Of a stretch of 32,272 bases of DNA, positions 3,064 through 27,681 are shown one piece after another. Made by a program: the position numbers and the translations under genes. Position 1 is the first letter of the stretch, and each line of letters opens with the position of its first letter. The stretch is taken from assembly GCA_944332025.1 (NCBI GenBank), contig CALVJB010000013.1, forward strand, positions 1 to 32,272, given 5' to 3'. The stretch comes from an uncultured Bacilli bacterium. Lineage in GTDB: Bacteria; Bacillota_I; Bacilli_A; RF39; UBA660. The notes below the pieces were generated by a model that worked only from the letters and a program-made list of their open reading frames with translations, had not been told where the DNA came from and made no database searches.

Positions 3064-4320
3064 ATGCTTACTATTGCTTTCCAAAGCTTTCCTGATTTTT
3101 CTAGTAATGCTAGAGCTTTATTTCAATATATGTATAAGAAATATGATAATAAAATGAAGTTTATTTGGGTAATAAATGATGATGGGATTAGAAACAAAAT
3201 AACTTCAAAAAATGTTGAAATAATAAATGTTAATAGTGATAACTTAGATAAAAAGTTAAGCAATGTAGATGTCTTTTTTACAACCCACGCTAATTTAACT
3301 GATTATAAAAAACAGAATTCACATACCCTTTATATCGAATTATGGCACGGAGTTAGTCCCAAAAACGTTGGCTTTTTAATTAATAATATGAATGAAAGTG
3401 ATTATAACTGGCTTAATAAAATACGAAAAAAAATTGATTATTTTATTGTACCAAGTGATTTTTGGGTACCAATTTTTGCGGCAAGATTTAATGTTTTACC
3501 AGAGAAAGTTTTACCTTTAGGTTTTCCTATGCTTGATAATATAGTTAATGCAGGTGGAAAAGAAAATCTGTCTAAAGTCTTAGAATGTGATATTAGTAAA
3601 TATGACAAAATAATTTATTACATGCCAACAGCAAGATTAGGATTTGGTAGAAGTGAAGATGTTTCCACTAATTTAAAAAATACTTTAAATTTAAAGCCTT
3701 ATAGTGAAAAGGAATTAGTTAATTATTTAGATAAGAATAATTATTTATTATGTATTAAATATCATCCTAGTGAAGAATTAAAATTTAACCAAGAAGATAG
3801 CAAATATATAAAATACATTAATCAAGATATGTTACAGAAATATAATTTAGATACTAATATGATATTAAATGCTGCTGATATAATGATAAGTGATTATTCA
3901 TCTTTGGGATTACTTTTCTTAATATTAGATAAACCTGTATTATACTTTTCTAGTGATGCAAGTGAGTTTTCTGTTTCGAGAGGCATACTATTTAATGATT
4001 TTAATTTTTGGACTAATAATGATACTATTGATACAATAGATAAGTTCAAAGAAAAGGTTAGTAGAGAGTTGAATACATCTAATATTGAATCCGTAAGAAA
4101 AAGAAGAAAACTTTTCTTTGGTGATTTGAAAGATGGGGGATGTTCTAATATTGTTGATTACTTTTTTGATAAAGATGGCAATTTGAAGTCTAATATTAAA
4201 TATACATATGATGAAAATTATGTCTTGAAACAAGAAAATTTAAAGTTAAAAGAAGAGTTAGATAATATATATAATTCTAAAGGGTATAAATTTTTAGAAA
4301 AGATTAGGAAGTTGAAGTGA
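3064..4320 (+). CDS. CDP-glycerol glycerophosphotransferase family protein (TagB/TagF-like)
   Basis: A 418-residue cytoplasmic, membrane-associated transferase expected to move glycerol phosphate from CDP-glycerol onto a lipid-linked acceptor or growing chain. The family's two catalytic histidine motifs are present: LWHG with His95 and KYHP with His234. PTARLGF and the nucleotide-site motif DIMISDYSSLG are also present. Its size suits a single TagB-type domain rather than a long TagF with an extra N-terminal region. Residues from about 390 form a charged helical tail (QENLKLKEELDNI) ending in NSKGYKFLEKIRKLK. The same ending recurs in the small protein at 12643. The TagD-like donor-making gene follows with an overlapping start, which supports CDP-glycerol as donor. 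Whether it primes, extends or decorates cannot be decided from sequence. Confidence 0.88.
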   Translation: MLTIAFQSFPDFSSNARALFQYMYKKYDNKMKFIWVINDDGIRNKITSKNVEIINVNSDNLDKKLSNVDVFFTTHANLTDYKKQNSHTLYIELWHGVSPKNVGFLINNMNESDYNWLNKIRKKIDYFIVPSDFWVPIFAARFNVLPEKVLPLGFPMLDNIVNAGGKENLSKVLECDISKYDKIIYYMPTARLGFGRSEDVSTNLKNTLNLKPYSEKELVNYLDKNNYLLCIKYHPSEELKFNQEDSKYIKYINQDMLQKYNLDTNMILNAADIMISDYSSLGLLFLILDKPVLYFSSDASEFSVSRGILFNDFNFWTNNDTIDTIDKFKEKVSRELNTSNIESVRKRRKLFFGDLKDGGCSNIVDYFFDKDGNLKSNIKYTYDENYVLKQENLKLKEELDNIYNSKGYKFLEKIRKLK

Positions 4321-4745
4321 ATAATATGAAAAAATATAAAATTGGATATGTTCAAGGAAGTTTTGATATGTTTCATATCGGACATTTAAATATACTTAAA
4401 AATGCAAAAAGTATTTGTGATTATTTGATAGTTGGTGTAAATAGTGATGATTTTATGTATTCATATAAACATAAGCATCCTGTTATTCCTGAAGAAGAAC
4501 GTCTTGAAATAATTAAATCTATAAAGTATGTTGATGAAGCACATATTGTTAATAATAGAGATAAGTTAGAAGCTTTAGAGAAGTTTCACTTTAATGCTTT
4601 AATTATGGGAGATGATTATAAAGGGACTGAATTTTATAATAAAGTAGAAAAGCAGTTAGAGGATAAAAATGTAGATATTGTTTATTTTCCTTATACTAAG
4701 ACTACTTCATCTACTATAGTTAGAGAGAAACTTTATAAATATTAG
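4317..4745 (+). CDS. tagD: Glycerol-3-phosphate cytidylyltransferase
   Basis: A nucleotidyltransferase of 142 residues (139 if ATG 4326 is used) that should make CDP-glycerol from CTP and glycerol 3-phosphate. The HIGH motif of the cytidylyltransferase fold is at residues 20-23 (DMFHIGHLN), and the C-terminal TKTTSSTIV matches the RTxGISTT-type nucleotide motif. Length is typical for TagD. GTG 4317 overlaps the upstream stop and has AGGAAG about five bases before it. ATG 4326 is the alternative, with the same site 14 bases away, so I prefer GTG only moderately. It supplies the substrate for the upstream TagB/TagF-like enzyme. Ethanolamine-phosphate or FAD-synthase-like relatives are less likely in this context. 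Confidence 0.88.
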   Translation: MNNMKKYKIGYVQGSFDMFHIGHLNILKNAKSICDYLIVGVNSDDFMYSYKHKHPVIPEEERLEIIKSIKYVDEAHIVNNRDKLEALEKFHFNALIMGDDYKGTEFYNKVEKQLEDKNVDIVYFPYTKTTSSTIVREKLYKY

Positions 4746-4749
4746 AAAG

Positions 4750-4778
4750 TTGACGTTAATATTATAAAATGCTATACT
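4750..4778 (+). promoter_or_regulatory. Promoter before the TagGH-like exporter
   Basis: TTGACG (4750-4755), a 17-base spacer, then TATACT (4773-4778) with an extended TGC just before it. A perfect inverted repeat, ATACTTT-T-AAAGTAT (4774-4788), overlaps the -10 and could be an operator. Confidence 0.7.
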
Positions 4779-4809
4779 TTTAAAGTATTAGATGAAAGAG
4801 GAGTGCAAA

Positions 4810-5622
4810 ATGACTAAGTTAAAAAATATTTGGTATAATTTTAAAAAATATCAGTTTTTAATGCAACAATTAATAACAAGAGATTTTAAAGTAAAATATA
4901 AAAGATCTGTTTTAGGTGTAGTATGGAGTTTACTTTATCCAATTTTGATGATGACTGTAATGGCTATGGTTTTCTCACAAATGTTTAGATTTAATGTTGA
5001 AGGTGTTAACTACCTTGTTTATTTAATGACAGGTATTATTATGTGGCAATATTTTAGTGAAGCGACTAATAATGCTATGACATCTGTTGTTAGTAACTTT
5101 GCTTTAATTAGTAAAGTATATATTCCTAAATATATCTTTCCTGTCGCTAAATGTATATTTGTTGGAATAAACTTTGTTTTGACATTAATACCTTGGTTTC
5201 TTTTGATAATAATAACACAATTTGGTCTTGGTACTTATCCGGCTTCTATTAATTGGTATTATTTATTGATTCCTTATATTTTTTTCTGTTTCTTCTTATT
5301 TACTGTTGGAGTAGGTATGTTGCTTTCATGTGTATCAGTATTTTTAAGAGACATGTTTTATATATATGGTATTATTTTAACGATATGGAATTATTTTACA
5401 CCAGTATTTTATAGTATAGAGATATTACCAGTTTCACTACAAGCATTATTTAAATTTAATCCACTATATCAATTTATTACAGCAGTTAGAAGTATTGTTT
5501 TGTATGGAGCAAGACCTTCTATAACTACTCTTGTATTATTAGCATTAATTGGTGGTGGTACATTGCTTGTAGGAGCGATTGTCTTTAAAAAGAAACAGGA
5601 TAAATTTATTTATTATATTTAG
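4810..5622 (+). CDS. Polysaccharide ABC exporter, permease subunit (TagG/ABC-2 type)
   Basis: A 270-residue integral membrane protein of the ABC-2 family that exports lipid-linked polymers. ATG 4810 is chosen because GAGGAG sits just upstream. The in-frame ATG at 4792 would leave almost no leader after the promoter. An N-terminal amphipathic segment (LITRDFKVKYKRS) precedes VLGVVWSLLYP, a hallmark of TagG/RfbA-type permeases. About six membrane segments follow. The ATPase gene begins nine bases after the stop. Within this cluster the likely cargo is the glycerol-phosphate or glycan polymer made by the neighbouring enzymes. The class also carries O-antigen-like polysaccharides, so the exact cargo is inferred. 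Confidence 0.88.
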   Translation: MTKLKNIWYNFKKYQFLMQQLITRDFKVKYKRSVLGVVWSLLYPILMMTVMAMVFSQMFRFNVEGVNYLVYLMTGIIMWQYFSEATNNAMTSVVSNFALISKVYIPKYIFPVAKCIFVGINFVLTLIPWFLLIIITQFGLGTYPASINWYYLLIPYIFFCFFLFTVGVGMLLSCVSVFLRDMFYIYGIILTIWNYFTPVFYSIEILPVSLQALFKFNPLYQFITAVRSIVLYGARPSITTLVLLALIGGGTLLVGAIVFKKKQDKFIYYI

Positions 5623-5631
5623 GAGGTTACT

Positions 5632-6405
5632 ATGATTAGAATTGAGCATGTTTCAATGAAATTTAACTTAGGTATTGAAAAAGAATATTCTATTAAAGAG
5701 GCCTTTATATCTTTTTTTGATAGAAAAAGAAGAAAGCCTAAAAGTGAGTTTTGGGCATTAAAAGATGTTTCTTTTACTGTAAATAAAGGAGAAGTTATAG
5801 GATTAATTGGTAGTAATGGTGCAGGTAAGAGTACTTTATTAAAAGTAGTTAGTGGTGTTATGAAACCTACTAAAGGTAAAGTAACTGTTAATGGTGTTAT
5901 ATCTCCTATGATTGAGTTAGGAGCAGGATTTGATGCAGAACTTACTGCTAGAGAAAATATTTATCTAAATGGTTCTATTTTAGGATATTCTAAAGAGTTT
6001 TTAGATGAAAAATTTGATGAAATAGTAGAATTTTCAGAGTTAAAAGATTTTCTTGATGCCCCTGTTAGAAACTTTTCTTCAGGAATGGTTGCAAAACTTG
6101 CCTTTTCCATCGCTACTATTGTTAATCCAGAGATCTTAATTGTTGATGAAATATTATCAGTAGGTGATATAAAGTTTCAAGAGAAAAGTAAAAATAAGAT
6201 GATGGAAATGATTAAGGGGGGTACTACTGTTCTTTACGTTTCTCATGATTTAGATTCTATCCTAAAACTATGTAATAGAGTAGTTTGGTTAGAACATGGA
6301 CAAGTTGTTAAAGTTGGTGAAACAAAAGAGATTTGTGAGGAATATTATAAAAAGCAACTTGGTAGAGATTTAAAAACTAAAGAAAAGAAAGAATTTAAAG
6401 ATTAA
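5632..6405 (+). CDS. Polysaccharide ABC exporter, ATPase subunit (TagH-like)
   Basis: A 257-residue ATP-binding subunit. Walker A is GSNGAGKST (60-68), the signature is NFSSGM (around 147-152) and Walker B is EILIVDE (around 167-173). A switch histidine lies in VSHDLDS. An N-terminal segment before the nucleotide fold ([16 protein letters not shown]) is usual for polysaccharide exporters. There is no long C-terminal carbohydrate-binding or wall-binding extension, so it is a short form compared with Bacillus TagH. An AGGAGG-type site precedes the ATG. It pairs with the permease just upstream. A strong hairpin follows its stop and probably ends this operon. Confidence 0.88.
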
Positions 6406-7261: not shown

Positions 7262-8734
7262 ATGTTAAAGAAAGTAAAGAATAATTATATAAGCATTATA
7301 GTAGTATTTGTTATACTTCTTCTAACATTTATTATTACTATGCAAAGTCCTTTAAATATTTTTTCTAATAAATTAATATCAGGAACTGATTCTAGTGTAT
7401 TTAGAACAGTAGCATATTACATGAGAGAAGAATTAATGCCATATAAGGATATTTTTGATCATAAAGGTCCAATAATATATATTCTTAACTATATAGGCAT
7501 GGCTATTTCTTATAATAGAGGAATATGGTTAATAGAATTTTTATCTATGTTTATCAGTTTATCTTTTATGTATAAAACTGCTAGGCTTTATTGTAATAAA
7601 TTTCTATCAATTTTAATATTAATATTAGTAACTTCTCCTTTGTTCTTATTTTTTGAACAAGGTAATTTAACAGAAGAGTATGCACTACCTTTTATTTCAA
7701 TATCATTTTTTATTTTTTTAGATTATTTAAAAAACAATAAGATATCTTCTTTTAGATTAATTGTGTGTGGAATATCTTTTGGAAGTGTTTGTCTTTTAAG
7801 AATAAATATGATACCTTTATGGATAGTTTTTTGTATAAGTATATTTATTAAAGAATTGAAAGATAAAAATATAAGACAACTTTTAAGATTTTGTCTATAT
7901 TTTATTTTAGGTATACTAATTATTGTATTACCAATATTTATTTGGTTAATTATAAATGGTGCTTTTATTCCTTTTTTTGAATCATATATACTATTTAATT
8001 TAAAATATACATCTGCATCAAGTATTACACTAATAGATAAATTAAACTCAATGGATTATTTTATGACTAATAGTATATCATTACTAGTTATAGCATTTTC
8101 TATATTTAATATATATAAAAGTAGAAACTTTATTAATATTAGTTATATTATATGTCTTTTATTAACTTATATTTTTATTACTCTTAGTGGTAGAACTTAT
8201 CCACATTATGGTATGATTTTAATCCCTTTATTTATTTATCCACTAGCTTATTCTTTTTATCTAAATAAAGGTAAGAATGAAAGATTCACATTAGAGTTAA
8301 TAACGATAATATTAGTGTTTTTATTTGCTTTTCCTAGTTATTTTGAAGGTGTAATTAAAGCTAGTAGTGATTATAATGATAGAGCATTAAATATAAATAA
8401 TACTTCAACTACAACTGAATTTGCTATTGCTTACGATGTTATTAGTAATACTGATGAAGATGATAAGATAACAGTTTTTGGCAATAATAATATAATCTAT
8501 CTCTTATCTAAACGTATGTCAGTTTCTAAGTATACATATCAGTTTCCTATATTAAATATTGATAAATCTATAAAAAAGAGTTACTTTACAGATTTAAATG
8601 AAGATAAGCCTAAGATTATTGTAAAGATATATGAAGATGAAGCGATGAAAAAATTTATAGAAGAAAATAATTATGTTTTGATTAGTTCTTATCCTTATTA
8701 CGATTGGAATGCAGAAGTTTATAAAATTAGTTAA
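7262..8734 (+). CDS. GT-C-type membrane glycosyltransferase
   Basis: A 490-residue protein with about ten hydrophobic segments and a soluble C-terminal region. After the first membrane helix comes GTDSSVFRTVAYYM, with MPYKDIFDHKGP soon after. This acidic first outer loop, with DHKGP and a YINYIG-like sequence, is typical of GT39/ArnT-related enzymes in Gram-positive polysaccharide clusters that use a polyprenyl-phosphate sugar as donor. The paired GT2 gene upstream would supply that donor. The C-terminal region (residues of about 395-490, with DEDDKITVFGNNN) resembles the outer domain of such proteins. Acceptor and sugar cannot be inferred. Confidence 0.75.
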   Translation: MLKKVKNNYISIIVVFVILLLTFIITMQSPLNIFSNKLISGTDSSVFRTVAYYMREELMPYKDIFDHKGPIIYILNYIGMAISYNRGIWLIEFLSMFISLSFMYKTARLYCNKFLSILILILVTSPLFLFFEQGNLTEEYALPFISISFFIFLDYLKNNKISSFRLIVCGISFGSVCLLRINMIPLWIVFCISIFIKELKDKNIRQLLRFCLYFILGILIIVLPIFIWLIINGAFIPFFESYILFNLKYTSASSITLIDKLNSMDYFMTNSISLLVIAFSIFNIYKSRNFINISYIICLLLTYIFITLSGRTYPHYGMILIPLFIYPLAYSFYLNKGKNERFTLELITIILVFLFAFPSYFEGVIKASSDYNDRALNINNTSTTTEFAIAYDVISNTDEDDKITVFGNNNIIYLLSKRMSVSKYTYQFPILNIDKSIKKSYFTDLNEDKPKIIVKIYEDEAMKKFIEENNYVLISSYPYYDWNAEVYKIS

Positions 8735-17404: not shown

Positions 17405-18568
17405 ATGACAGATGTAGAAAATGTCAGAAATTCTAATTTTGAACTTTTGAGAATTGTATCAATGCTATTTATTATAATTTTTCATCTCATTTTTCGGCTT
17501 TGTAGTATTCATTCATATGAGATGAGCTCTAGTATATATATATTAATAAGATTTATAATTGCAATTACATTAGTGCATGTTAGTTCTTTTGTAATAGTTA
17601 CAGGGTATTTTCAATGTAAAAAGAAGATGAGACTATCAAAAGCAATATCTATAAATAATGCAACGTGGTTTTATGGTGTTATCTTCCTATTAATAGCATT
17701 AATTTTGACAGAAAAATTAAATATTTCTTTAACATATCCTATTACAAGTTTAGATATTTTTAAAACTATAATACCGCTTGATTATGGACTTTATTGGTAT
17801 ATAGGGTGTTATTTAGTCTTATATTTAATTTCACCAATCTTAAATATAGTTATAAATAATTGTGATAAAAAGACTTTAAAAAGAATAATAATAACTTTAT
17901 TTATTATATTTAGTATAATACCAACTCTTACTTTAGATGCTACAGTTTATACTAACGAAGGGCATTCTATTTATAATTTCATACTTTTATATTTTATAGG
18001 TGCCTACTTAAGGTGTTATCCGCTTGATAAGAGTGCTCTATTATCTAGATTTACTGATAAAGGGAAACAACTATTATATTTTGTAGGTTATATCTTTTTT
18101 GCCTTTTTATCTGTTTTATTCTTTTCAATATCAAGAGAGTTAAATTCATCAAACGAAATAGTTAACTATATATCAAATATCTTTTATTGGTTTCATAATA
18201 GTTTTGGTAGTCCTATATTAATTGTTCAGACAATACTTTATTTTTTATTCTTTAGTACCTTAAATATAAAGAGTAAGATAATTAATTATATTTCTAGTTG
18301 TACACTAGGTATTTACTTAATACATGAAAATATCTATGTTAGAGATAATCTTTATGGGTTTTTGGAATATTTTAATGTTTCTAGCATGACTTTAAAAACT
18401 ATAGTATTAATATTATTGACGGCAGTAGTTATCTTTGTTATTAGTATGTTAATAGAAATGTTAAGAAAAAAGTTATTTAAATTTATTTATAATCGAAAAA
18501 TATCTTGTAGATTTAGAGAGTTTTATAGATCTTATTTTAAAAAAATAGGTTTAAATATTAATTGGTAA
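17405..18568 (+). CDS. Acyltransferase-3 family membrane protein
   Basis: A 387-residue protein with about ten membrane helices. The start NFELLRIVSMLFIIIFHLIF carries the family's characteristic ELLRI...H pattern; His in IIFH is the expected functional residue. Later segments (YWYIGCYLVLYLISPIL, LGIYLIHENIY) also fit. Members typically O-acetylate or O-succinylate extracellular or lipid-linked glycans from a cytoplasmic acyl donor. It appears to be a single-gene unit, since a terminator and promoter precede it and another promoter follows. It adds a second possible route of acylation in this cluster beside the MBOAT at 22186. The ribosome site is an unusual run of seven G (17391-17397). Confidence 0.82.
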   Translation: MTDVENVRNSNFELLRIVSMLFIIIFHLIFRLCSIHSYEMSSSIYILIRFIIAITLVHVSSFVIVTGYFQCKKKMRLSKAISINNATWFYGVIFLLIALILTEKLNISLTYPITSLDIFKTIIPLDYGLYWYIGCYLVLYLISPILNIVINNCDKKTLKRIIITLFIIFSIIPTLTLDATVYTNEGHSIYNFILLYFIGAYLRCYPLDKSALLSRFTDKGKQLLYFVGYIFFAFLSVLFFSISRELNSSNEIVNYISNIFYWFHNSFGSPILIVQTILYFLFFSTLNIKSKIINYISSCTLGIYLIHENIYVRDNLYGFLEYFNVSSMTLKTIVLILLTAVVIFVISMLIEMLRKKLFKFIYNRKISCRFREFYRSYFKKIGLNINW

Positions 18569-18624: not shown

Positions 18625-19551
18625 ATGAAAGAAAATAAAAAAATTGCAGTATTAATACCATGTTATAACGAAAGTAAAACAATTGAAAAAGTAGTAAAAG
18701 ATTATAAAAAGGTTTTGCCTAATGCTGATATTTATGTTTATGATAATAATTCTACTGATGGTACTGATAAAATTGCTAAGAAAGCTGGTGCTATTGTTAA
18801 ATATGAATATCGTCAAGGTAAGGGGAATGTTATTAGAAGCATGTTCAAAGACATTGATGCAGACTGTTATTTGATGATAGATGGTGATGATACATATCCT
18901 AAAGAAAATGCCAAAGAAATGTGTGATTTAATTTTAAATGGCAAAGCTGATATGGTAATAGGTGATAGATTATCATCAACTTATTTTTCTGAAAATAAAA
19001 GACCTTTTCATAACTTTGGTAATAAAATGGTTAGAGGCTTAATCAATACTTTATTCAAAAGCAATATTCATGATATTATGACTGGCTATAGAGCTTTTAG
19101 TTATGAGTTTGTTAAGACTTTTCCAGTCTTATCTAAGGGATTTGAAATAGAGACAGAGATGACTATACATGCTTTAGATAAGAATTTTCTATTAAAAGAA
19201 ATTCCAGTTGAATATAGAGATAGACCAGAGGGAAGTGTATCTAAACTTAATACTTATAGTGATGGTTTTAAAGTATTAAAAACTATAGCTAGGTTATTTA
19301 AAGAATATAAACCAATGATTTTTTTCACTATAATAAGTTTAATTTTCTTAATTATTTCTTTAATATTTGGTATTCCTGTATTTGTTGAATATTTTGAGAC
19401 AGGATTAGTTCCAAGATTTCCAACTCTAATATTTGCTGGTTTTATGTTAATAATTGCAATACTATTATTAATATGTGGTTTAATTCTTGAAGTATTAGTA
19501 AAAAAACATAGACAATTATTTGAACTTTTACTTATTAAAACAAGAAAATAG
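18625..19551 (+). CDS. GT2 glycosyltransferase with two C-terminal membrane helices
   Basis: A 308-residue enzyme. The N-terminal GT-A domain has VLIPCYNESKTI, YDNNSTDGT and the metal motif DGDD at 86-89, then MTGYRAFS and IPVEYRDRPEGS. These match polyprenyl-phosphate glycosyltransferases of the DPM1/GtrB group. Two hydrophobic helices (about 229-255 and 265-292) anchor it, as in GtrB and YfdH-type proteins. It should load a sugar onto undecaprenyl phosphate for a GT-C enzyme, and the DUF6020-like or GT-C proteins upstream are candidate partners. It differs from the GT2 at 6528, which has no membrane helices, so the cluster may feed two different lipid-linked sugars. No GtrA-type flippase gene is present in the window. 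Confidence 0.83.
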   Translation: MKENKKIAVLIPCYNESKTIEKVVKDYKKVLPNADIYVYDNNSTDGTDKIAKKAGAIVKYEYRQGKGNVIRSMFKDIDADCYLMIDGDDTYPKENAKEMCDLILNGKADMVIGDRLSSTYFSENKRPFHNFGNKMVRGLINTLFKSNIHDIMTGYRAFSYEFVKTFPVLSKGFEIETEMTIHALDKNFLLKEIPVEYRDRPEGSVSKLNTYSDGFKVLKTIARLFKEYKPMIFFTIISLIFLIISLIFGIPVFVEYFETGLVPRFPTLIFAGFMLIIAILLLICGLILEVLVKKHRQLFELLLIKTRK

Positions 19552-19662: not shown

Positions 19663-21444
19663 ATGAAAGAACTTGATTATCCTTTTGATAGTGATTATAT
19701 TTTAAAAAAGAAAAAGAGTTTAAAGAAAGAATTATTAAACCAAAATACTAATTTTTTAGAAAAGAAAATTGCTATTTTAGGAGGTTCCACAACTAATGAT
19801 ATAAAACTTATATTGGAATTGTTTTTGTTAAACTATGATATAAAACCCTCATTTTATGAGTCTGAATATAATCAATATTTTCAAGAGGCTATGTTTGAAA
19901 ACAAAGAACTAGATGAATTTGAACCTGACATTATTTTTATTCATACTTCAAATAGAAATATTACTAATTATCCTACTATTTTAAATACTAGTGAGGAAAT
20001 TGATAATCTATTACATCAAGAATATCAGAAGTTTGTAGGAATATGGGAAAATTTATCAAAAAAATATAATTGTCCTATTATTCAAAATAATTTTGAATAT
20101 CCATTTTATAGATTGTTAGGGAATAAAGATGCTACTGATATACATGGTAAAACTAATTTTATTACAAGACTTAATTTAGAATTTTCTAAATATGCAGATA
20201 GTCATAATAATTTCTTTATAAACGATATTAATTATCAGTCTAGTTTATATGGTTTAGAAAAATGGTCTGATCAGTTTTATTGGCATATGTATAAATATGC
20301 TTTAGCAGTACCTGCAATTCCTCTTTTAGCTTTTAATGTAGCGAATATTATTAAGTCAATTTATGGTAAAAATAAAAAAGGTCTTGTACTTGATTTAGAT
20401 AATACTTTATGGGGAGGAATAGTAGGAGATGATGGTGTTGACAATATAAAAATTGGCAAGGATACTTCAGAAGGTCAAGTATATTATGAATTTCAAAACT
20501 ATATTAAAGAGTTAAAACAAATGGGTATTATTTTAAATATTAATAGTAAAAACGATTATGAAAATGCTATTTCAGGTCTAGAACATCCTGATGGTGTTTT
20601 AAAAAAAGATGATTTTGTTGTAATAAAAGCTAATTGGCTACCCAAGTCAAAAAATATGTTGGATATTGCCAACGAGCTTAATTTAGGAGTAGATAGTTTA
20701 GTCTTTGTTGATGATAATCCTGCTGAAAGGGCTATTATTAATCAACATATTCCTAGTGTTAAAACTCCAGAAATGAAAAGCCCTGAGACATATATAAATA
20801 CAATTGATAGAGCTGGTTTCTTTGAAGTTACTAATCTTTCAAAAGACGATTTGAAGAAAACACAGATGTATAGAGATAATATGGAGAGAAATAAAATAAT
20901 GGCATCTTTTACTAATTATGATGATTACTTAAAGTCATTAGAGATGCATGCTAAAATTGAGAGCTTTATACCATTATATATGGCTAGAATTGCTCAATTA
21001 ACTAACAAGAGTAACCAATTTAATTTAACGACCAAAAGATATACACAAGCAGAAATAGAAGAAGTTAGTAAGGATGATAACTATCTTACTTTATATGGTA
21101 AACTTGAAGATATTTTTGGAGACAATGGAGTTATTTCTGTAATAATAGGTCATATTAATAAAACTATATTAGATATAGATTTATGGATTATGAGTTGTAG
21201 AGTTTTAAAACGAGATGTAGAGAAGGCTATGCTAGATGTTTTAGTTAAAAGAGCATTAGAAAAGGGGATTAAAGAAATACATGGCTATTATTATCCTACT
21301 GCTAAAAATGGTATGGTAAAAGATTTTTATGAGTTGCAAGGTTTTACAAAAATTAAAGAAGATGATAAAGGTAATACAGAGTGGATACTAAAGATAGATA
21401 AAGATTATGAACCTAAAAATAAATTAATAAGAGTGGAGGAATAA
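19663..21444 (+). CDS. FkbH-like enzyme (HAD phosphatase / acyl loading onto ACP)
   Basis: A 593-residue protein. Residues 1 to about 230 form the SGNH-like N-terminal region common in this family (KIAILGGSTTND, PDIIFIHTSNRN). The HAD core begins with LVLDLDNTLWGG (Asp244, Asp246) and continues through LNINSKNDYENA and LVFVDDNPAER. The C-terminal part (LTNKSNQFNLTTKRY, DLWIMSCRVLKRDVE) is acetyltransferase-like. Cys512 in MSCRV is the residue I expect to carry the acyl group. In characterised FkbH-type enzymes, 1,3-bisphosphoglycerate is dephosphorylated and the glyceryl group passes to an acyl carrier protein. The ACP gene starts two bases after this stop, supporting that role. The exact acyl unit here is inferred. 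Confidence 0.88.
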   Translation: MKELDYPFDSDYILKKKKSLKKELLNQNTNFLEKKIAILGGSTTNDIKLILELFLLNYDIKPSFYESEYNQYFQEAMFENKELDEFEPDIIFIHTSNRNITNYPTILNTSEEIDNLLHQEYQKFVGIWENLSKKYNCPIIQNNFEYPFYRLLGNKDATDIHGKTNFITRLNLEFSKYADSHNNFFINDINYQSSLYGLEKWSDQFYWHMYKYALAVPAIPLLAFNVANIIKSIYGKNKKGLVLDLDNTLWGGIVGDDGVDNIKIGKDTSEGQVYYEFQNYIKELKQMGIILNINSKNDYENAISGLEHPDGVLKKDDFVVIKANWLPKSKNMLDIANELNLGVDSLVFVDDNPAERAIINQHIPSVKTPEMKSPETYINTIDRAGFFEVTNLSKDDLKKTQMYRDNMERNKIMASFTNYDDYLKSLEMHAKIESFIPLYMARIAQLTNKSNQFNLTTKRYTQAEIEEVSKDDNYLTLYGKLEDIFGDNGVISVIIGHINKTILDIDLWIMSCRVLKRDVEKAMLDVLVKRALEKGIKEIHGYYYPTAKNGMVKDFYELQGFTKIKEDDKGNTEWILKIDKDYEPKNKLIRVEE

Positions 21445-21446
21445 AG

Positions 21447-21689
21447 ATGACAAAAGAAGAAATATATAATGCTTTAGATGAAGTTTTTCAAGAGGTTTTT
21501 GATGATGATGAAATTCATGTTAATGAATCTACTACTGCTGATGATATTGAAGATTGGGATAGTCTAGAACATATTAATTTGGTTGTAGCAGTTGAAAATA
21601 AATTTGGAATAAAATTTAATATGAACGAAGTAACAACTATGAAAAATGTTGGGGAAATGGTTGATATTATATTAGAAAGACAACAATGA
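21447..21689 (+). CDS. Acyl carrier protein
   Basis: An 80-residue acidic protein with the phosphopantetheine site DWDSLEHINLV; Ser39 is the attachment residue. The helix pattern and length match free-standing carrier proteins. DWDS replaces the DSLD of fatty-acid ACPs, a form common in specialised pathways. It follows the FkbH-like gene by two bases and overlaps the MaoC gene by four, so it is very likely the carrier that FkbH loads. A dedicated AcpS lies at 27340 in the same gene run. It could be compared functionally with DltC, which carries D-alanine to MBOAT DltB. Confidence 0.92.
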   Translation: MTKEEIYNALDEVFQEVFDDDEIHVNESTTADDIEDWDSLEHINLVVAVENKFGIKFNMNEVTTMKNVGEMVDIILERQQ

Positions 21690-22105
21690 AAGAATACGAA
21701 TTTAAAGATATTGAAGTAGGTATGGAGGTATCTTTTGAATATGTGCTAGATGAAGAAATGATGGAGATGTTTAAAAAAATTTCTAAAGATATTAATCCTC
21801 TTCATAATGATTTAGAATATGCTAAAGAAAATGGTTATAAAGAAAAAGTAGTATATGGTTTGCTTACTGCTTCTTGTCTATCTTCTTTAGCAGGTATGTA
21901 TATACCAGGTAAGTATAGCTTGATTCATAATATTGAAATATCATTTATTAAACCAGTTTATCTTAGAGATTGTCCTTTAATAGTACAAGCTAAAGTTGTA
22001 TCTATTGATGAGAGATTTAAACAGATTGAATTAAAGTATAATATATACAATCAAAATAAAGAAAAAGTATGTAGAGGTAAAATGAAAATAGGAGTTACAA
22101 AGTAG
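21686..22105 (+). CDS. MaoC-like (R)-specific hydratase/dehydratase
   Basis: A 139-residue hot-dog fold protein. The hydratase motif is intact: Asp35 and His40 in KDINPLHND, then VVYGLLTASCLSSLAG and GKYSLIHNIEISFIKPV. PhaJ and MaoC proteins add or remove water at C2-C3 of acyl-thioesters. Its ATG overlaps the ACP stop (ATGA), so it is translationally coupled to the carrier and probably acts on the acyl-ACP. If the substrate were glyceryl-ACP, removal of water would give a 2-hydroxyacryl thioester that can tautomerise to pyruvyl. This is speculation, and a fatty 3-hydroxyacyl substrate is also possible. Confidence 0.85.
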   Translation: MKEYEFKDIEVGMEVSFEYVLDEEMMEMFKKISKDINPLHNDLEYAKENGYKEKVVYGLLTASCLSSLAGMYIPGKYSLIHNIEISFIKPVYLRDCPLIVQAKVVSIDERFKQIELKYNIYNQNKEKVCRGKMKIGVTK

Positions 22106-22114
22106 TTACTATTA

Positions 22115-22144
22115 TTGACTGCTATATGGAAAATACTATATACT
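22115..22144 (+). promoter_or_regulatory. Promoter before the MBOAT gene
   Basis: TTGACT (22115-22120), 18-base spacer, TATACT (22139-22144). It sits ten bases after the MaoC stop and probably starts a second transcript covering the MBOAT through AcpS genes and perhaps the NatAB-like pair. Confidence 0.6.
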
Positions 22145-22185
22145 AATATATATCTAGAAAAATTATAGACTTGGGGGCAGTACTT

Positions 22186-23697
22186 ATGAGAATTACGTCA
22201 TTTAATTTTTTTGTATTTCTATTTTTAAGTTTAGTTGTATTCTATATATTTCCTAAAAAATATCGCTGGTTTGCTTTGTTAGGAATCAGCATTTTCTTTT
22301 TTGTATTTTCTAGTTCATGGAAATTATTATTATATATGATTTTCGGAATAGTAGTAAGTTATTTAGGAAGTAATATAATAGAGAAAAAATGTAAAAATGA
22401 TAAAAGTAAAAAGATAGTTCTATTTTTAACTTTATTCCTTATTGTGGGGGAACTTGCTATTTTAAAGTACATTAATATATTTCCAGCGACTATTAATCTT
22501 TTTGGTAGTTTATTTAATTTAGATATTTATTTTAATACTATCAACCTTTTAGCACCACTTGGTATATCTTATTATACACTTTCTTTAATAGGGTATGTTA
22601 CAGATGTATATAGAACAACTTCTAAAGCACAAACTAATATATTAAAACATGCTTTATTTACTTGTTATTATCCATTATTAATATCAGGACCAGTAGTTAG
22701 ATATAATTATATGCAACGAGAATTTTTTGAAGAGAAAAAACTAGATTTTAATAATCTATTTATTGGATTTACTAGATTAATATATGGTCTATTAAAAAAA
22801 TTGGTAATTGCTGATCAGTTATCACAAGTAGTAAATGCAGTCTTTTCAAATTATAATTATTATACAGGGTGGTATTTGGTTGTTGCTGTTATTTTGTATG
22901 CTATTCAGATATATGCAGATTTTTCTGGGTGTATGGATATTGTTATTGGAGCATCTAAAATGTATGGAGTAAACCTTCCTGAAAACTTTAATAGTCCATT
23001 TTTCTCAAAAAATTTATCTGAATTTTGGCGAAGATGGCATATATCTCTTGGTACATGGGGTAAAGATTATATAATGTATCCTTTATTAAAAGCTAATATT
23101 TTTCAAAAAATAGGTAAGAAATGTAAGAAGTTATTTGGTAAGAAAATTGGTAAACTAATCCCCACAATAATATCTATACTATTATTATGGTTATTTATTG
23201 GGTTATGGCATGGAGCAAGTTATAAATATATTTTTGCTGCTGGTATTCTTCCTTGGATTTATTTAACAGTAGGACAAATAGTAGAAAAGCCTATAGAAAA
23301 ACTAACAGAGAAGTTACACATAAAAACAGAGTGTTTTAGTTTTAGATTGTTTCAGTCACTTAGAACATTTTTCTTTATGTGTGTGATTTGGCTTTTCGCT
23401 TGTTCTCCAAGTTTAAGAGAAAGTATTTATATAATAAAAAATATTTTTGTAAATGCAAGTTTATTACTTAGAAATGAATTGCCAGTGATACCTATATTAC
23501 CTATACTATTTTCAGTTACTATTGTTTTTATAGTAGATTATCTTAACTATAAGAATATTGATGTTTCTTTAAAATTTAAAGAACAAAATTTAATATTTAA
23601 ATTTATCGTTTTATTTGCCTTTATAATAACTATTTTGATATATGGGGCTTATGGACCTGGTTATAATCCTACAGATTTTATTTATGGAGGTTTTTAA
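22186..23697 (+). CDS. MBOAT family O-acyltransferase (DltB/AlgI-like)
   Basis: A 503-residue polytopic membrane enzyme. ATG 22186 is chosen over TTG 22171 because GGGGG (22173-22177) is well placed before it. Family hallmarks are YYTLSLIGYVTDVYR, LISGPVVRYN, ADFSGCMDIVIG, WRRWHISLGTWGKDYI with His285, and LWHGASYKY with His342, the expected catalytic histidine. Such proteins hand acyl groups across the membrane to extracellular polymers, as DltB does for D-alanine and AlgI for acetyl. The SGNH gene starts right after the stop, as in AlgI/AlgX-like and DltB/DltD pairs. With an ACP and its loader just upstream, the donor is probably the acyl-ACP rather than acyl-CoA. Confidence 0.9.
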   Translation: MRITSFNFFVFLFLSLVVFYIFPKKYRWFALLGISIFFFVFSSSWKLLLYMIFGIVVSYLGSNIIEKKCKNDKSKKIVLFLTLFLIVGELAILKYINIFPATINLFGSLFNLDIYFNTINLLAPLGISYYTLSLIGYVTDVYRTTSKAQTNILKHALFTCYYPLLISGPVVRYNYMQREFFEEKKLDFNNLFIGFTRLIYGLLKKLVIADQLSQVVNAVFSNYNYYTGWYLVVAVILYAIQIYADFSGCMDIVIGASKMYGVNLPENFNSPFFSKNLSEFWRRWHISLGTWGKDYIMYPLLKANIFQKIGKKCKKLFGKKIGKLIPTIISILLLWLFIGLWHGASYKYIFAAGILPWIYLTVGQIVEKPIEKLTEKLHIKTECFSFRLFQSLRTFFFMCVIWLFACSPSLRESIYIIKNIFVNASLLLRNELPVIPILPILFSVTIVFIVDYLNYKNIDVSLKFKEQNLIFKFIVLFAFIITILIYGAYGPGYNPTDFIYGGF

Positions 23698-24774
23698 ATG
23701 AAAGAGAAGTTTAAGAAAAGTATGATTCCTATAACTAAAATGATTGCTTTTATCATCATATTTATATTTGTATTTACTTATTTAACATATTTAATGAAAC
23801 CCGATGAAGTTAGTTTAAGGAATATTAATGGATATTATGGAGAAAAGAAGAATTCTTTAGATATGGTATATATAGGAGGAAGTGCTTGTTTTGTATATTG
23901 GGCGCCTTTACAAGCATTTGAAGATGAGGGAATTGCTTCATATAGTTATGGTGCTTATGTTGTTCAGGCAGAATTATATAAATATTTAATAAAAGAAGCT
24001 TTAAAAACTCAAGATCCAGAATTAATTGTTATTGATGCTAGGGCTTTTCAATATAGAGAGAATCGATTACCTGAAGAAGTTCATTATCGTAACTTTTTAA
24101 CAGGTATGAGTTTTTCTTTAAACAAATTGGAATTTATAAATGAAAATGTAGAAAAAAATATAGGTCAGGAGACTTTACCATATATCTTTGATATAATAAA
24201 ATATCATCGTTCATTTTTCTCTGATAACATAAATCCTAATGCTTTATCTATGATGTTTCATACATACAAAAATCCTCTAAAAGGTTTTTACTTTGTTCCA
24301 GAAGTAGCTATGTTAGAAGAGTATGATAATAAGACTGATGAGGAAAAGAAGATAGCTAAAGAGTCTGAAGATATCTTATTAGATTTATTAGATTATATTA
24401 AAACTACAGATAGTGATTATTTATTTGTCGTATCTCCTTATCAAGAAACAAAAGAACAAAGAATGCAGTTTAATTATATAGAAGATATAATTACTGAAGC
24501 TGGTTATAACTTTGTAGATGCTAATCTTTACTATGATGAAATGAATTTAGATTTTGAAGGCGATCTTTATAACTTTAATCATGTTAATATCTATGGAGCT
24601 GAGAAGTATACAAGTTTTATCTCAGATTATATAAAAGAAAATTATGACTTGCCTGATCGTAGGGATGATAGTAATTATAAAGAGTGGTATGATTTGCTTG
24701 ATAATTGGCATGAACAAGTAGATATGACTAAAAAAACTATTGATGATAAGAAGAAGGAGTTATTAAATGAATAA
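23698..24774 (+). CDS. Membrane-anchored SGNH-fold protein (DltD/AlgX-like partner of the MBOAT)
   Basis: A 358-residue protein with one N-terminal membrane helix (about 13-33), the rest facing outward. The likely nucleophile is Ser62 in YIGGSACFVYW. His295 in FNHVNIYGAEKYT is the block V histidine, and Asn292 sits where many SGNH proteins have Asp. DARAFQYRENRL and FVVSPYQETKEQR are further family-like segments. It starts directly after the MBOAT stop. Such partners finish or assist O-acylation of wall or exported polymers. Hydrolase activity instead of transfer cannot be excluded. The C-terminal helix (KEWYDLLDNWHEQVD) overlaps the next gene by eight bases. Confidence 0.82.
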   Translation: MKEKFKKSMIPITKMIAFIIIFIFVFTYLTYLMKPDEVSLRNINGYYGEKKNSLDMVYIGGSACFVYWAPLQAFEDEGIASYSYGAYVVQAELYKYLIKEALKTQDPELIVIDARAFQYRENRLPEEVHYRNFLTGMSFSLNKLEFINENVEKNIGQETLPYIFDIIKYHRSFFSDNINPNALSMMFHTYKNPLKGFYFVPEVAMLEEYDNKTDEEKKIAKESEDILLDLLDYIKTTDSDYLFVVSPYQETKEQRMQFNYIEDIITEAGYNFVDANLYYDEMNLDFEGDLYNFNHVNIYGAEKYTSFISDYIKENYDLPDRRDDSNYKEWYDLLDNWHEQVDMTKKTIDDKKKELLNE

Positions 24775-25594
24775 AGATAATTTTAATATGCCTTTGATAG
24801 GATTTGGTACGTGGAAATTACCTAATAGTGAAGAGACTATTGAAATAGTAAAAAATGCTATTGATAGTGGATACAGACTAATAGATACTGCTAAAGCATA
24901 TGGAAATGAAACTTATATAGGTAGAGGTATAAAAGCTTCTTCTATAAAAAGAGAGGAATTGTTTATTACTGGAAAATTGTGGAATAGTGATAGAGATAAT
25001 GTAGAAGAGGCTTGTCTTTCAACAATCTCTAAGTTAGATTGTGACTATTTAGATTTATATTTAATGCATTGGCCAGCATCAAAAGCAGTTCATGAAGATT
25101 GGATTTTGATTAATAAAAGAGTATGGGAGCAGTTAGAAAAGTTATATGATAAAGGATTAGTTAAAGCGATAGGGGTATGTAATTTTAATAAATTGCAATT
25201 AGAAGAATTATTAAAGACAGCTAGAATAAAACCTTTTGTTAATCAAATAGAATTTCATCCAGGTTTTAGACAAGAGGAAACTTTGGACTTTTGTTTTAAA
25301 AATAATATATTAGTAGAAGCATGGAGTCCTTTAGGATCAGGAAAATTATTGAAGAAGAAACCATTGCAAGATATGGCTTTAAAGTATAATAAGACACCTG
25401 CTGATATTTGTATAGCTTTCTCTATTCAAAATAATGTCATACCTATTGTTAAAACTAGAAATAAAGATAGGATGATATCAAACTTGAAAGCAGTAGAGTT
25501 TAAATTATCAAGTGAAGATTTAAATAACTTAAATAATTTACCTTATATAGGTGGCTCTGGATTAGACTCTTTTACAATAACAATATTCGATTAG
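24767..25594 (+). CDS. Aldo/keto reductase
   Basis: A 275-residue NADPH-type reductase with a TIM-barrel fold. The full catalytic tetrad is visible: Asp40 and Tyr45 (LIDTAKAYGNE), Lys70 (FITGKLW) and His101 (YLMHWPAS). IPIVKTRNKDRMISN near the C-terminus matches the cofactor-binding motif. Family members reduce carbonyls of sugars, alpha-keto compounds and aldehydes. The overlap with the SGNH gene and position before the split transketolase suggest a role in making or trimming the acyl precursor, but general metabolic or detoxifying activity is possible. Confidence 0.87.
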   Translation: MNKDNFNMPLIGFGTWKLPNSEETIEIVKNAIDSGYRLIDTAKAYGNETYIGRGIKASSIKREELFITGKLWNSDRDNVEEACLSTISKLDCDYLDLYLMHWPASKAVHEDWILINKRVWEQLEKLYDKGLVKAIGVCNFNKLQLEELLKTARIKPFVNQIEFHPGFRQEETLDFCFKNNILVEAWSPLGSGKLLKKKPLQDMALKYNKTPADICIAFSIQNNVIPIVKTRNKDRMISNLKAVEFKLSSEDLNNLNNLPYIGGSGLDSFTITIFD

Positions 25595-25602
25595 GAGGAA
25601 AA

Positions 25603-26436
25603 ATGGAAGATAAATTAAAAGAAATTAGAAAAGAAATATTTTTAACAGCATATAGTGCGTCTATTGCTCATATTGCTTCCGCATTTTCAATAGTAGAGAT
25701 TTTATATACCTTATATAAATGTAATATATTAAACTATGATCCTAAAAATCCAAATTCTGAAGGAAGAGATTACTTTATTTTAAGTAAGGGACATGGTAGT
25801 TTAGCTTTATACCAAGTGTTAGCAGATGTTGGATTTTTTGATAAGAGTATTTTGAAAACATTTTCTAAGCCTGGTTCTATTTTAGGAGGAGAACCATGTT
25901 ATCCTTATGTACCTGGTGTTGAAACATCAACAGGTTCTTTAGGACATGGATTGTCTTATGCTACTGGAGTTGCTAAAGCTTTAAAACTTGATGGTAAAAA
26001 GTCTAAAGTATATTGTCTTTTAGGAGATGGTGAATGTGAAGAGGGGACAGTGTGGGAAGCTACTATGTTCGCTGTACATGAAAGATTAGATAACTTAACT
26101 ATAATAGTAGACTGCAATAAAATTCAAAAAATGGGTAGTTTAGAAGATGTTATGGGCATTAAATCTTATAAAGAATATTTTCAAGCATTTGGCTGTGATG
26201 TATGTGAAGTAAATGGACATGATGTTGAGGAGTTAGAAAAATGTTTTAAACAAGTAAATAATAGTTTAAAGCCAAGAGTTGTTCTAGCTAATACTGTTAA
26301 AGGTAAGGGAGTATCTATTGTAGAGAATAATCCAAGATGGCATTGGAAGTTACCAAATAAAAGAGAATTAAAGGTATTTGTCAATGAGTTAAATATTAGT
26401 GATGAGGAGATAGAAGAATGCAAAAAGCTTATATAA
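25603..26436 (+). CDS. Transketolase, N-terminal (thiamine diphosphate-binding) subunit
   Basis: A 277-residue subunit of a split transketolase. Motifs are SKGHGSLALY (61-70), GSLGHGLSYATG (from 111) and the thiamine diphosphate/metal motif GDGECEEG (141-148) with Asn172 (DCNKIQ). It covers only the first half of a full-length transketolase. The second half is encoded by the next gene, overlapping by 19 bases. Transketolases move two-carbon ketol units between sugar phosphates. A split, cluster-embedded pair often serves a specialised pathway rather than the core pentose phosphate route. AGGAGG precedes the start. Confidence 0.88.
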   Translation: MEDKLKEIRKEIFLTAYSASIAHIASAFSIVEILYTLYKCNILNYDPKNPNSEGRDYFILSKGHGSLALYQVLADVGFFDKSILKTFSKPGSILGGEPCYPYVPGVETSTGSLGHGLSYATGVAKALKLDGKKSKVYCLLGDGECEEGTVWEATMFAVHERLDNLTIIVDCNKIQKMGSLEDVMGIKSYKEYFQAFGCDVCEVNGHDVEELEKCFKQVNNSLKPRVVLANTVKGKGVSIVENNPRWHWKLPNKRELKVFVNELNISDEEIEECKKLI

Positions 26437-27332
26437 AAACTATATATAATTTAATGAAACAAGATAAAAATGTTATATTATGTCTTTCTGATAGTGGTAC
26501 TGATTATGATGAGATGATTGCAAGAGAATTGCCTTCCCAAGTCATTAATTTTGGCATTAGTGAGAATAATAAAGTAGCTGCTTCTGCAGGACTAGCTAGT
26601 CAAGGTAAGATACCTTTTGTATATACAACTAATGCTTTTTTAGCATATAGATCTTATGAGTTTATAAGAGATGATATATGTTTACAAAATAGAAATGTTA
26701 AGTTAGTAGGAATGGGTTCTGGTCTTTCTTGGTCTACATTAGGACCTACTCATCATGCTACAGAAGATATTGCGGTATTAAAAGCTCTTCCTAATTTAAC
26801 AATATTATCTCCTGCTAGTCCTTTTGAATTAGAAAAATCTATACTAGCTGCTTATCAAATAGATGGTCCCGTTTATATTAGAATGGGTATGAGCAATGAA
26901 AAAGAGATATATGAGGATGATTATTCATTTATTGTATCTAAAAACATAAAAATAACTGATGGAGATATGGGGACTGTATTTGTTACTGGTAGTATAATAA
27001 ATGAATTACTAGATACTATTGAAATGCTTAATAAAGAAGGTATCTCCTTAAGAGTTATAAATGTTCATACTTTGAAGCCATTAGATGAAGGAAATATAAT
27101 TGAAGAATGCAAAAATAGTAAGATAGTATTTTCTTTGGAAGAACATAACATTATTGGCGGATTAGGCAGTAGTATAGCAGATGTAATTGCAACAAATAGT
27201 ATTGATACAAAGCTTATCAAAATAGGACTTAATGATACTTTCGCTACTGGTTATGGTACTTATAGTGAGATAAAGAGACTTAATGGTTTAGATAAAGATT
27301 CTATTTATAAAATAATAAAAGATAATTTATAG
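26418..27332 (+). CDS. Transketolase, C-terminal subunit
   Basis: A 304-residue partner of the preceding subunit. It contains the pyrimidine-binding domain with the catalytic Glu49 (NFGISENN), the segments PFVYTTNAFLAYRSYEFIRDD and LGPTHHATEDIAVL, and a transketolase C-terminal domain (from about residue 180). The ATG lies 19 bases inside the preceding gene, so translation is probably coupled and the two form an alpha2beta2-type enzyme. The related layout of deoxyxylulose-5-phosphate synthase and pyruvate dehydrogenase beta subunits makes the exact reaction uncertain. No lipoyl-domain gene is present, which argues against a pyruvate-dehydrogenase-type complex. Confidence 0.87.
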   Translation: MQKAYIKTIYNLMKQDKNVILCLSDSGTDYDEMIARELPSQVINFGISENNKVAASAGLASQGKIPFVYTTNAFLAYRSYEFIRDDICLQNRNVKLVGMGSGLSWSTLGPTHHATEDIAVLKALPNLTILSPASPFELEKSILAAYQIDGPVYIRMGMSNEKEIYEDDYSFIVSKNIKITDGDMGTVFVTGSIINELLDTIEMLNKEGISLRVINVHTLKPLDEGNIIEECKNSKIVFSLEEHNIIGGLGSSIADVIATNSIDTKLIKIGLNDTFATGYGTYSEIKRLNGLDKDSIYKIIKDNL

Positions 27333-27339
27333 GTGTATT

Positions 27340-27681
27340 ATGATTGTAGGTATTGGTATTGATATTGTTGAAAATAGAAGAATAGATGAAAATACATTTA
27401 ATAATTTGAAAGAGAATATCTTAACAGTTAAGGAAAAAGAAGTGCTTTTAACAAAGAAAGGTAAGAAAAAGTTAGAATATTTGTGTGGAAGATTTGCTGG
27501 AAAAGAAGCAGTTATTAAAGCAATTGGTGATAAAGAAATACTAAATATGAAGGAAATAGAGATTCTTAATAGAGAAAATGGAAAACCTTATGTTATATTA
27601 AAAGATTATAACATTTTAATTTCAATTTCTCATGAAAAAAATTATACAGTCGCTGAAGCAATCGTATTAAAGGAGGAATAA
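27340..27681 (+). CDS. acpS: Holo-acyl carrier protein synthase (phosphopantetheinyl transferase)
   Basis: A 113-residue enzyme that attaches 4'-phosphopantetheine from coenzyme A to the carrier serine. The AcpS motifs are clear: GIGIDIVENRR with Asp8, LCGRFAGKEAVIKA, and ISISHEKNYTVAEAI. Size is typical of AcpS. It starts seven bases after the transketolase subunit and ends two bases before the ABC ATPase gene, so it lies within the acyl-modification operon. It probably activates the ACP at 21447, though it could also be the cell's general AcpS. Confidence 0.9.
   Translation: MIVGIGIDIVENRRIDENTFNNLKENILTVKEKEVLLTKKGKKKLEYLCGRFAGKEAVIKAIGDKEILNMKEIEILNRENGKPYVILKDYNILISISHEKNYTVAEAIVLKEE

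Follow-up and report, generated by a model that had tools for sequence, protein, structure and literature searches.

Pathways built on a membrane-bound O-acyltransferase (MBOAT) and an SGNH protein are currently viewed as doing without a carrier protein because they use acyl-CoA, with Dlt as the exception; O-acetylation of the PatA/PatB and AlgI/AlgJ-X type is described as having an acyl-CoA donor and no carrier (PMC12148441). In Dlt, the carrier DltC touches helix HC of the MBOAT DltB via hydrophobic residues and Lys312/Arg317 (PMC11035591); the acyl-Tyr shuttle is carried by an FxYxxF motif in PatA and, on the microprotein DltX, in Dlt (PMC12148441). FkbH cassettes of methoxymalonyl and tetronate type are described as loading glyceryl from 1,3-bisphosphoglycerate onto a free acyl carrier protein (ACP) (PMC7489565, PMC8949500). 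Parts related to all of these systems meet in the window analysed here, the whole of a 32,272-base contig (CALVJB010000013.1) from an uncultured Bacilli bacterium (assembly GCA_944332025.1; 1.59 Mb, 95% complete, 101 contigs). Between 19663 and 27681, nine intact + strand open reading frames (ORFs) encode FkbH, ACP, MaoC, MBOAT, an SGNH protein, an aldo/keto reductase (AKR), the two transketolase chains TkN and TkC, and AcpS, spaced by 0-10 bases or overlapping slightly except for ~80 bases ahead of the MBOAT. This run probably encodes a carrier-dependent surface O-acylation pathway of Dlt-like build that is charged by FkbH. Its features are as follows.

19663..21444, + strand: FkbH-type HAD-IIIC/acyl-loading enzyme of 593 aa, putative ACP loader (TIGR01686; FkbH_N, PF21211)
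21447..21689, + strand: free ACP of 80 aa with phosphopantetheine site Ser39, codon 21561-21563 (PF00550)
21686..22105, + strand: MaoC, an (R)-hydratase-type dehydratase and putative tailoring enzyme (PF01575)
22186..23697 (alternative TTG start at 22171), + strand: DltB-like MBOAT acyltransferase (TIGR04091)
23041..23205, + strand: lysine-rich 55-residue MBOAT region, net +9, at the position of the DltC-binding helix HC of DltB (sequence comparison)
23677..23694, + strand: FIYGGF, the C-terminal acyl-shuttle hexapeptide of the MBOAT, with Tyr505 as putative acceptor (FXYXXF motif, PMC12148441)
23698..24774, + strand: membrane-anchored SGNH transferase of DltD-like fold, Ser62/His295 (structure model, Foldseek)
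24767..25594, + strand: AKR, putative reductase of the tailored acyl-ACP (PF00248)
25603..26436, + strand: transketolase N-terminal chain (TkN), binding thiamine diphosphate (PF00456; best PDB match 6yak)
26418..27332, + strand: transketolase C-terminal chain (TkC) (PF02779, PF02780; 6yaj, split-chain transketolase)
27340..27681, + strand: AcpS holo-ACP synthase (TIGR00516, 61.5 bits against a cut-off of 59.8)

ORFs, family matches and the SGNH model agree on these nine parts, as an earlier reading made from the letters of the window, here called the sequence-only reading, had listed them. The arrangement recurs widely. An FkbH search covering 385 genomes of the host's order returned 27 above the cut-off, and 30 FkbH loci were read (those of the matching genomes, together with the window and another genome from the same genus): 29 have an ACP, 27 an MBOAT, 25 a recognised SGNH protein and 16 an AcpS within reach, typically in the order FkbH-ACP-(tailoring)-MBOAT-SGNH. 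Another 76 loci were drawn from named records, chiefly of Lachnospiraceae, Oscillospiraceae and other Clostridia, and in 58 of them an MBOAT lies no more than 9 kb away. Since these loci were chosen as the best matches to the order's own FkbH, that fraction cannot be read as a value for FkbH proteins in general. An ACP is present in 98 of the 106 loci together. The conserved FkbH-ACP-MBOAT-SGNH neighbourhoods that the sequence-only reading had named as a check thus exist, and dispersal of these genes in relatives, which would have spoken against it, is excluded as a rule: G105 alone, with no MBOAT near its FkbH, has VOC-MBOAT-SGNH on another contig, while two other loci lacking a nearby MBOAT are a short contig (L048) and a second FkbH of its genome (L052, in G087). 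The same linkage appears from the other end: in an order-wide search with an MBOAT profile, the top tier comprises 27 matches of at least 571 bits, all but one in FkbH-positive genomes, and the contig of the exception (L157) runs ACP-MBOAT-SGNH and ends where FkbH would stand. In Alphaproteobacteria, a Rhodobacteraceae plasmid carries ACP-FkbH-MBOAT-SGNH-VOC and pSymB of Sinorhizobium meliloti VOC-MBOAT-SGNH-ACP-FkbH, the SGNH proteins of both being recognised solely by their motifs GxS and DxxH. In S. meliloti 1021 the FkbH gene on pSymB (L165:8824-10688) is split into two frames, and it appears in two pieces in a few other records as well; most other S. meliloti records, that of 2011 among them, have it undivided, and the split is either a strain difference or a sequencing error. 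Two 'Bacteriophage sp.' records from human faeces, both lacking annotation, also contain FkbH-like sequences (MT835480.1:71470-73143 and MT839313.1:3-806), which may reflect bacterial contamination or a phage-borne surface-modification gene.

Canonical Dlt was rejected as a description of the locus. No protein exceeds the cut-off of the DltA model TIGR01734 (559.85 bits) in the host genome, where the best match has 107 bits, or in any of the 28 FkbH-positive genomes, the carrier is the FkbH-linked ACP, and the MBOAT, while closest to DltB, scores 138.6 bits with TIGR04091, under the 375-bit equivalog cut-off; the system is therefore better regarded as a distinct form of surface acylation by a carrier-dependent MBOAT-SGNH pair. 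The enzyme found in place of DltA belongs to the FkbH family (282.7 bits with TIGR01686, cut-off 146.65) and has 3slr as a PDB relative spanning residues 18-394. In a seven-way alignment that includes cassettes of known type (methoxymalonyl-type L170, tetronate-type L172 and L173), residues D244, D246, S295, D350, D351, S511-C512-R513 and N549 are invariant; they include the nucleophile Asp pair of HAD enzymes and the acyl-Cys motif of FkbH enzymes. Because these active-site residues are common to glyceryl-ACP cassettes of described chemistry, loading of glyceryl on the ACP is the default expectation for the enzyme of the window.

The carrier itself has the motif WDSLEHIN, invariant in 25 relatives, and a net charge of -16; it matches general ACP families of NCBIfam, with no DltC model among those matches. 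It is the sole PF00550 match of the whole genome, AcpS is the sole PF01648 match, and both lie in the cluster together with the genome's sole DltB-like MBOAT. A ketoacyl synthase (PF00109) is absent from the genome, the same search being positive in 14 of 14 control genomes; with no such synthase and the sole carrier placed in the cluster, the ACP thus has no fatty-acid role. Likewise, a ketoacyl synthase is missing from 27 of the 28 FkbH-positive genomes, and in 19 of the 28 PF00550 is matched just once. AcpS occurs in 25 of 27 FkbH-positive genomes vs 51 of 358 others (odds ratio 75, Fisher p = 1.6e-17), a statistic that ignores relatedness, the FkbH-positive genomes spanning 20 genera. The only FkbH-positive genome with a ketoacyl synthase, G087, has its second FkbH (L052:6000-19901) on the same contig as the synthase and extra carrier domains, and this locus looks like a natural-product cluster in a lineage otherwise without fatty-acid synthesis.

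By sequence as well as by structure model, the best PDB match of the MBOAT is DltB (6bug/8jem), with a TM-score of 0.78 on the target. H290 and H347, numbered from the TTG start, are invariant in the alignment; they equal His285 and His342 counted from the later start, and these residues, named by the sequence-only reading along with Ser39 of the ACP and Ser62/His295 of the SGNH protein, are all conserved in relatives. H347 is invariant in 37 relatives together with F503, I504 and Y505, so that a catalytic histidine and an FxYxxF motif are both in place; a hexapeptide of this kind ends nearly all MBOAT relatives (FIYGGF in the window), residues 501-508 of the structure model being of low confidence. 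At the position of helix HC, MBOATs adjacent to FkbH-ACP mostly have 54-55 residues of net charge +5 to +10 between two conserved WH motifs, and no PLGGNR loop was found in them when this region was compared. MBOATs linked to adenylation enzymes share the long form. In the FkbH loci, MBOATs at a greater distance or in opposite orientation show a form of 38 residues with PLGGNR, and those paired with DHHW-type proteins a third form of 35 residues. This rule is a trend, since the DHHW-paired form and the MBOAT of L142, which is PLGGNR-like at 208 bases from an FkbH, depart from the long form. By that trend the MBOAT of the window, with its long lysine-rich region, no PLGGNR and an acidic ACP, would be of the carrier type, and the absence of PLGGNR argues against an acyl-CoA donor. 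In L127, L129, L130, L133, L134, L138 and L141, FkbH-ACP stands beside a separate MBOAT clade with DHHW/AlgX-like partners.

The SGNH protein is without a match to any sequence family in a family search of the ORF; its fold is recognised from a structure model (pLDDT 93.6), which shows an SGNH fold at Z 11-12 and has DltD proteins as its top Foldseek hits and longest structural alignments. Ser62 and His295 are conserved in 41 relatives, which places a catalytic-Ser/His SGNH protein directly beside the MBOAT. One FkbH-MBOAT locus (L065:12027-19986) holds five SGNH paralogues, and several others hold two or three; such multiplicity suggests that one acyl donor serves more than one acceptor site or polymer.

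Most direct among the sequence arguments for FkbH replacing DltA is a sister cassette. The second tier of the MBOAT search (~420-520 bits) belongs to loci composed of an adenylation enzyme, usually a LysA-like pyridoxal phosphate (PLP) enzyme, an ACP, an MBOAT and an SGNH protein, with AcpS on the opposite strand; gene order is identical to that of the FkbH cassette, and the loader and the tailoring gene alone differ. The adenylation enzyme reaches 309 bits with TIGR01733 and 293 of 560 bits with the DltA model. Found in 14 of the 51 genomes that have AcpS and lack FkbH, the cassette is presumably a second unusual Dlt-like system, whose carrier would be charged with an amino acid by the DltA-like ligase. 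Its loci are L144-L154 and L159-L161 (for example L145:4555-10320); L155, L156 and L163 have the form without the PLP enzyme. Taken with the intact catalytic residues and the sole AcpS and MBOAT, the loader exchange, the conserved linkage, the sole carrier and the shuttle motif largely support, at the level of sequence, the proposal that a Dlt-like system here uses FkbH instead of DltA.

In the vicinity of ACP and MBOAT stand genes that vary from locus to locus. In the window, MaoC has the (R)-specific enoyl-CoA hydratase 5cpg as its best PDB match and a conserved D35-x-N37-P-L-H40 motif, and D40, Y45, K70 and H101 of the AKR are conserved. The transketolase had been described as split, which holds for its two chains but not in the sense of a broken gene, an idea rejected on the match to split-chain enzymes: it is an ordinary two-subunit enzyme with the Carboxydothermus split enzyme as best PDB match. 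Elsewhere, an SDR protein is always accompanied by MaoC (21 of 21 loci, p = 1.6e-14), a VOC/glyoxalase-like protein (PF13669) lies near the ACP or MBOAT in 16 of 106 loci, a methyltransferase module occurs in a few loci, and other loci have no tailoring gene. VOC and MaoC are near-exclusive (one joint case, L043; p = 0.04). In L043, which also has an SDR, the VOC gene is split in two frames (7933-8317), and this locus possibly lost one tailoring route after gaining another. Mapped on trees, the modules require 19 changes on the MBOAT tree and 18 on the FkbH tree, the latter from a quick search only; the fit is equal and therefore says nothing about MBOAT specificity. What both trees do indicate is frequent swapping of modules, with no fewer than 18 changes on each. 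The acyl group is presumably modified by these optional enzymes (MaoC and reductase, VOC, transketolase, methyltransferase): in our reading, VOC epimerises glyceryl at C2, MaoC and the reductase convert glyceryl to lactyl via pyruvyl, and the transketolase, in the variant of the window, either contributes a C2 unit or serves another purpose. A DH-MT-FkbH-ACP module provides a polyketide synthase analogue and was judged inactive by its authors (PMC4552970).

Upstream of the gene run lie glycosyltransferases, two DUF6020 membrane proteins and the following features, the first of which includes the teichoic-acid-type genes that the sequence-only reading had placed next to the cluster.

3064..6405, + strand: teichoic-acid-type context of CDP-glycerol glycerophosphotransferase, cytidylyltransferase, and ABC-2 permease with ATPase (PF04464, PF01467, PF01061, PF00005)
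17405-18568: AT3 acyltransferase
18625..19551, + strand: polyprenyl-phosphate glycosyltransferase-like protein, directly 5' of the gene run (PF00535; TIGR04182, 240.6 bits, below cut-off)

The start of the contig (1-450 and 404-3004) encodes choline-binding-repeat proteins, one with a C39-like peptidase domain, which suggests choline-bearing wall polymers in the host.

From these parts we infer a route that covers the loading of glyceryl, the order of tailoring, the final acyl group and its acceptor. AcpS would arm the ACP with phosphopantetheine, and FkbH would take a 3-phosphoglyceryl unit from 1,3-bisphosphoglycerate, strip the phosphate and load D-glyceryl onto the ACP. MaoC would dehydrate glyceryl-ACP to pyruvyl-ACP, and a reductase (AKR here, SDR elsewhere) would take this towards lactyl-ACP, the transketolase possibly adding two carbons ahead of reduction. 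At its basic cytoplasmic face the DltB-like MBOAT would then receive the acyl group carried by the ACP and transfer it to its own C-terminal Tyr505, from which the SGNH protein, acting through Ser62, would hand it on to a wall-polymer hydroxyl. Judging from the upstream genes of this window, that polymer is probably the teichoic-acid-type glycan for which they code. The acyl group is predicted to be glyceryl, lactyl or a C5 hydroxyacyl.

Several observations weigh against this pathway. The HC contacts of DltB are matched in part: their hydrophobic and basic character is kept while the identities are lost. Action of MaoC on glyceryl-ACP is hypothetical, a reaction with acyl-ACP is not obvious for a transketolase, and the tailoring modules fit the MBOAT tree no better than the FkbH tree. 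In Eisenbergiella-type and Oscillospiraceae loci the MBOAT has no detected SGNH neighbour, biochemical work on a member of the system was not found, and in ~18 of the 76 loci from outside the order FkbH-ACP has no MBOAT in reach. FkbH-ACP alone is thus no proof of MBOAT use, as some pairs stand without one, L108 among them near nonulosonate-type genes. In that locus (L108:10001-15989), CMP-sugar synthetase-like and NeuB-like genes, identified by eye, follow 2-3 kb on, and FkbH-ACP may there supply acyl groups of nonulosonic acids. On a Niveispirillum plasmid (L166:6785-11265), a putative acetyltransferase of the WcbI family and an SDR protein come after FkbH-ACP; the former is possibly another transferase for the same acyl-ACP.

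A more elaborate chemistry is conceivable within the same frame, if rather unlikely: the final acyl group could be a branched C5 polyhydroxy acid, for which MaoC would make pyruvyl-ACP, transketolase would add a C2 ketol from a ketose phosphate and AKR would reduce the product ahead of its transfer by the MBOAT. Consistent with this, transketolase halves occur with MaoC in 12 of 14 transketolase loci (p = 6e-6), AKR is confined to transketolase loci (6 of 14, p = 2e-6), FkbH-TkN-TkC are adjacent in several Clostridia loci, and the MBOATs of the window, L033, L054, L063, L064 and L066 form one fully supported clade. Transketolases normally use aldehydes as acceptors, however, no precedent with an acyl-ACP was found, and the enzyme could instead serve sugar synthesis.

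It is improbable that FkbH-ACP feeds another cytoplasmic transferase acting on a sugar or lipid, with MBOAT and SGNH separately adding acetyl from acetyl-CoA in the manner of PatA/PatB. PatA does use acetyl-CoA and bears the same C-terminal motif (PMC12148441), the FkbH-ACP loci lacking an MBOAT would fit, and an AT3 acyltransferase lies upstream; but AT3 is near FkbH in just 4 of 106 loci, the sole carrier and the sole DltB-like MBOAT of the genome lie close to each other in one run, and MBOATs of one class, devoid of the PLGGNR loop, follow the ACP in both FkbH and adenylation cassettes. That the locus is a remnant of a tetronate or methoxymalonate natural-product pathway rather than a surface-modification system is hardly credible: FkbH-ACP pairs are best known from polyketide pathways, but a polyketide pathway is rejected for want of a ketoacyl synthase in the genome, the oxidoreductase/methyltransferase set is missing, the partners are a membrane MBOAT-SGNH pair, and even G087 keeps its FkbH-MBOAT locus apart from the synthase contig that holds its second FkbH.

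The carrier-dependent pathway charged by FkbH may extend to a broader picture, towards which the evidence leans: a modular factory for surface acyl groups, common among gut Bacillota and also present in Alphaproteobacteria. In it, interchangeable enzymes would start from a glycolytic intermediate and build small hydroxy acids on a dedicated ACP, the loader being exchangeable between FkbH and an adenylation enzyme, and one carrier-dependent MBOAT-SGNH machine would export them as varied, hitherto unrecognised esters on polymers. In the open-access literature searched, subscription papers lying outside that search, there was no description of an FkbH-ACP-MBOAT surface system, nor was a paper found there on a gene for the L-glyceryl of gellan. 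If the proposal is true, a second and widespread class of carrier-dependent MBOAT-SGNH systems exists, with an acyl group made on the carrier from glycolysis; glycolytic flux would be tied to surface chemistry, glyceryl, lactyl or related esters would be expected on glycans of uncultured gut bacteria, and the retention of ACP and AcpS in lineages without fatty-acid synthesis would be accounted for. The HC region offers a testable sequence rule separating carrier-fed from CoA-fed MBOATs, and the versions in S. meliloti and Eisenbergiella tayi make the system directly testable.

By comparison with Dlt, the locus shares a dedicated AcpS-armed carrier, a DltB-like MBOAT, an SGNH protein of DltD-like fold, an acyl-Tyr shuttle motif and adjacent teichoic-acid-type genes; it differs in that the loader is FkbH and not an adenylating ligase, the shuttle motif is fused to the MBOAT instead of lying on DltX, putative tailoring enzymes would act between loader and MBOAT, and the predicted acyl group is a hydroxy acid where Dlt has D-alanine. 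With PatA/PatB and AlgI/AlgJ-X it has in common an MBOAT with a fused C-terminal FxYxxF motif and an SGNH partner, whereas a longer lysine-rich region replaces the PLGGNR loop of unlinked MBOATs. The FkbH-ACP pathways of methoxymalonyl, tetronate and nonribosomal peptide synthesis use the same loader family, active-site residues, free ACP and presumed 1,3-bisphosphoglycerate donor, yet those pathways oxidise glyceryl-ACP or build it into polyketides or peptides by condensation, while here the acyl group would be exported as a surface-polymer ester. The sister adenylation cassette, which has the same gene order and lineage and, in the order-wide search, the nearest MBOAT relatives outside the FkbH-linked group, differs in its DltA-like ligase, which charges the carrier there as FkbH would here.

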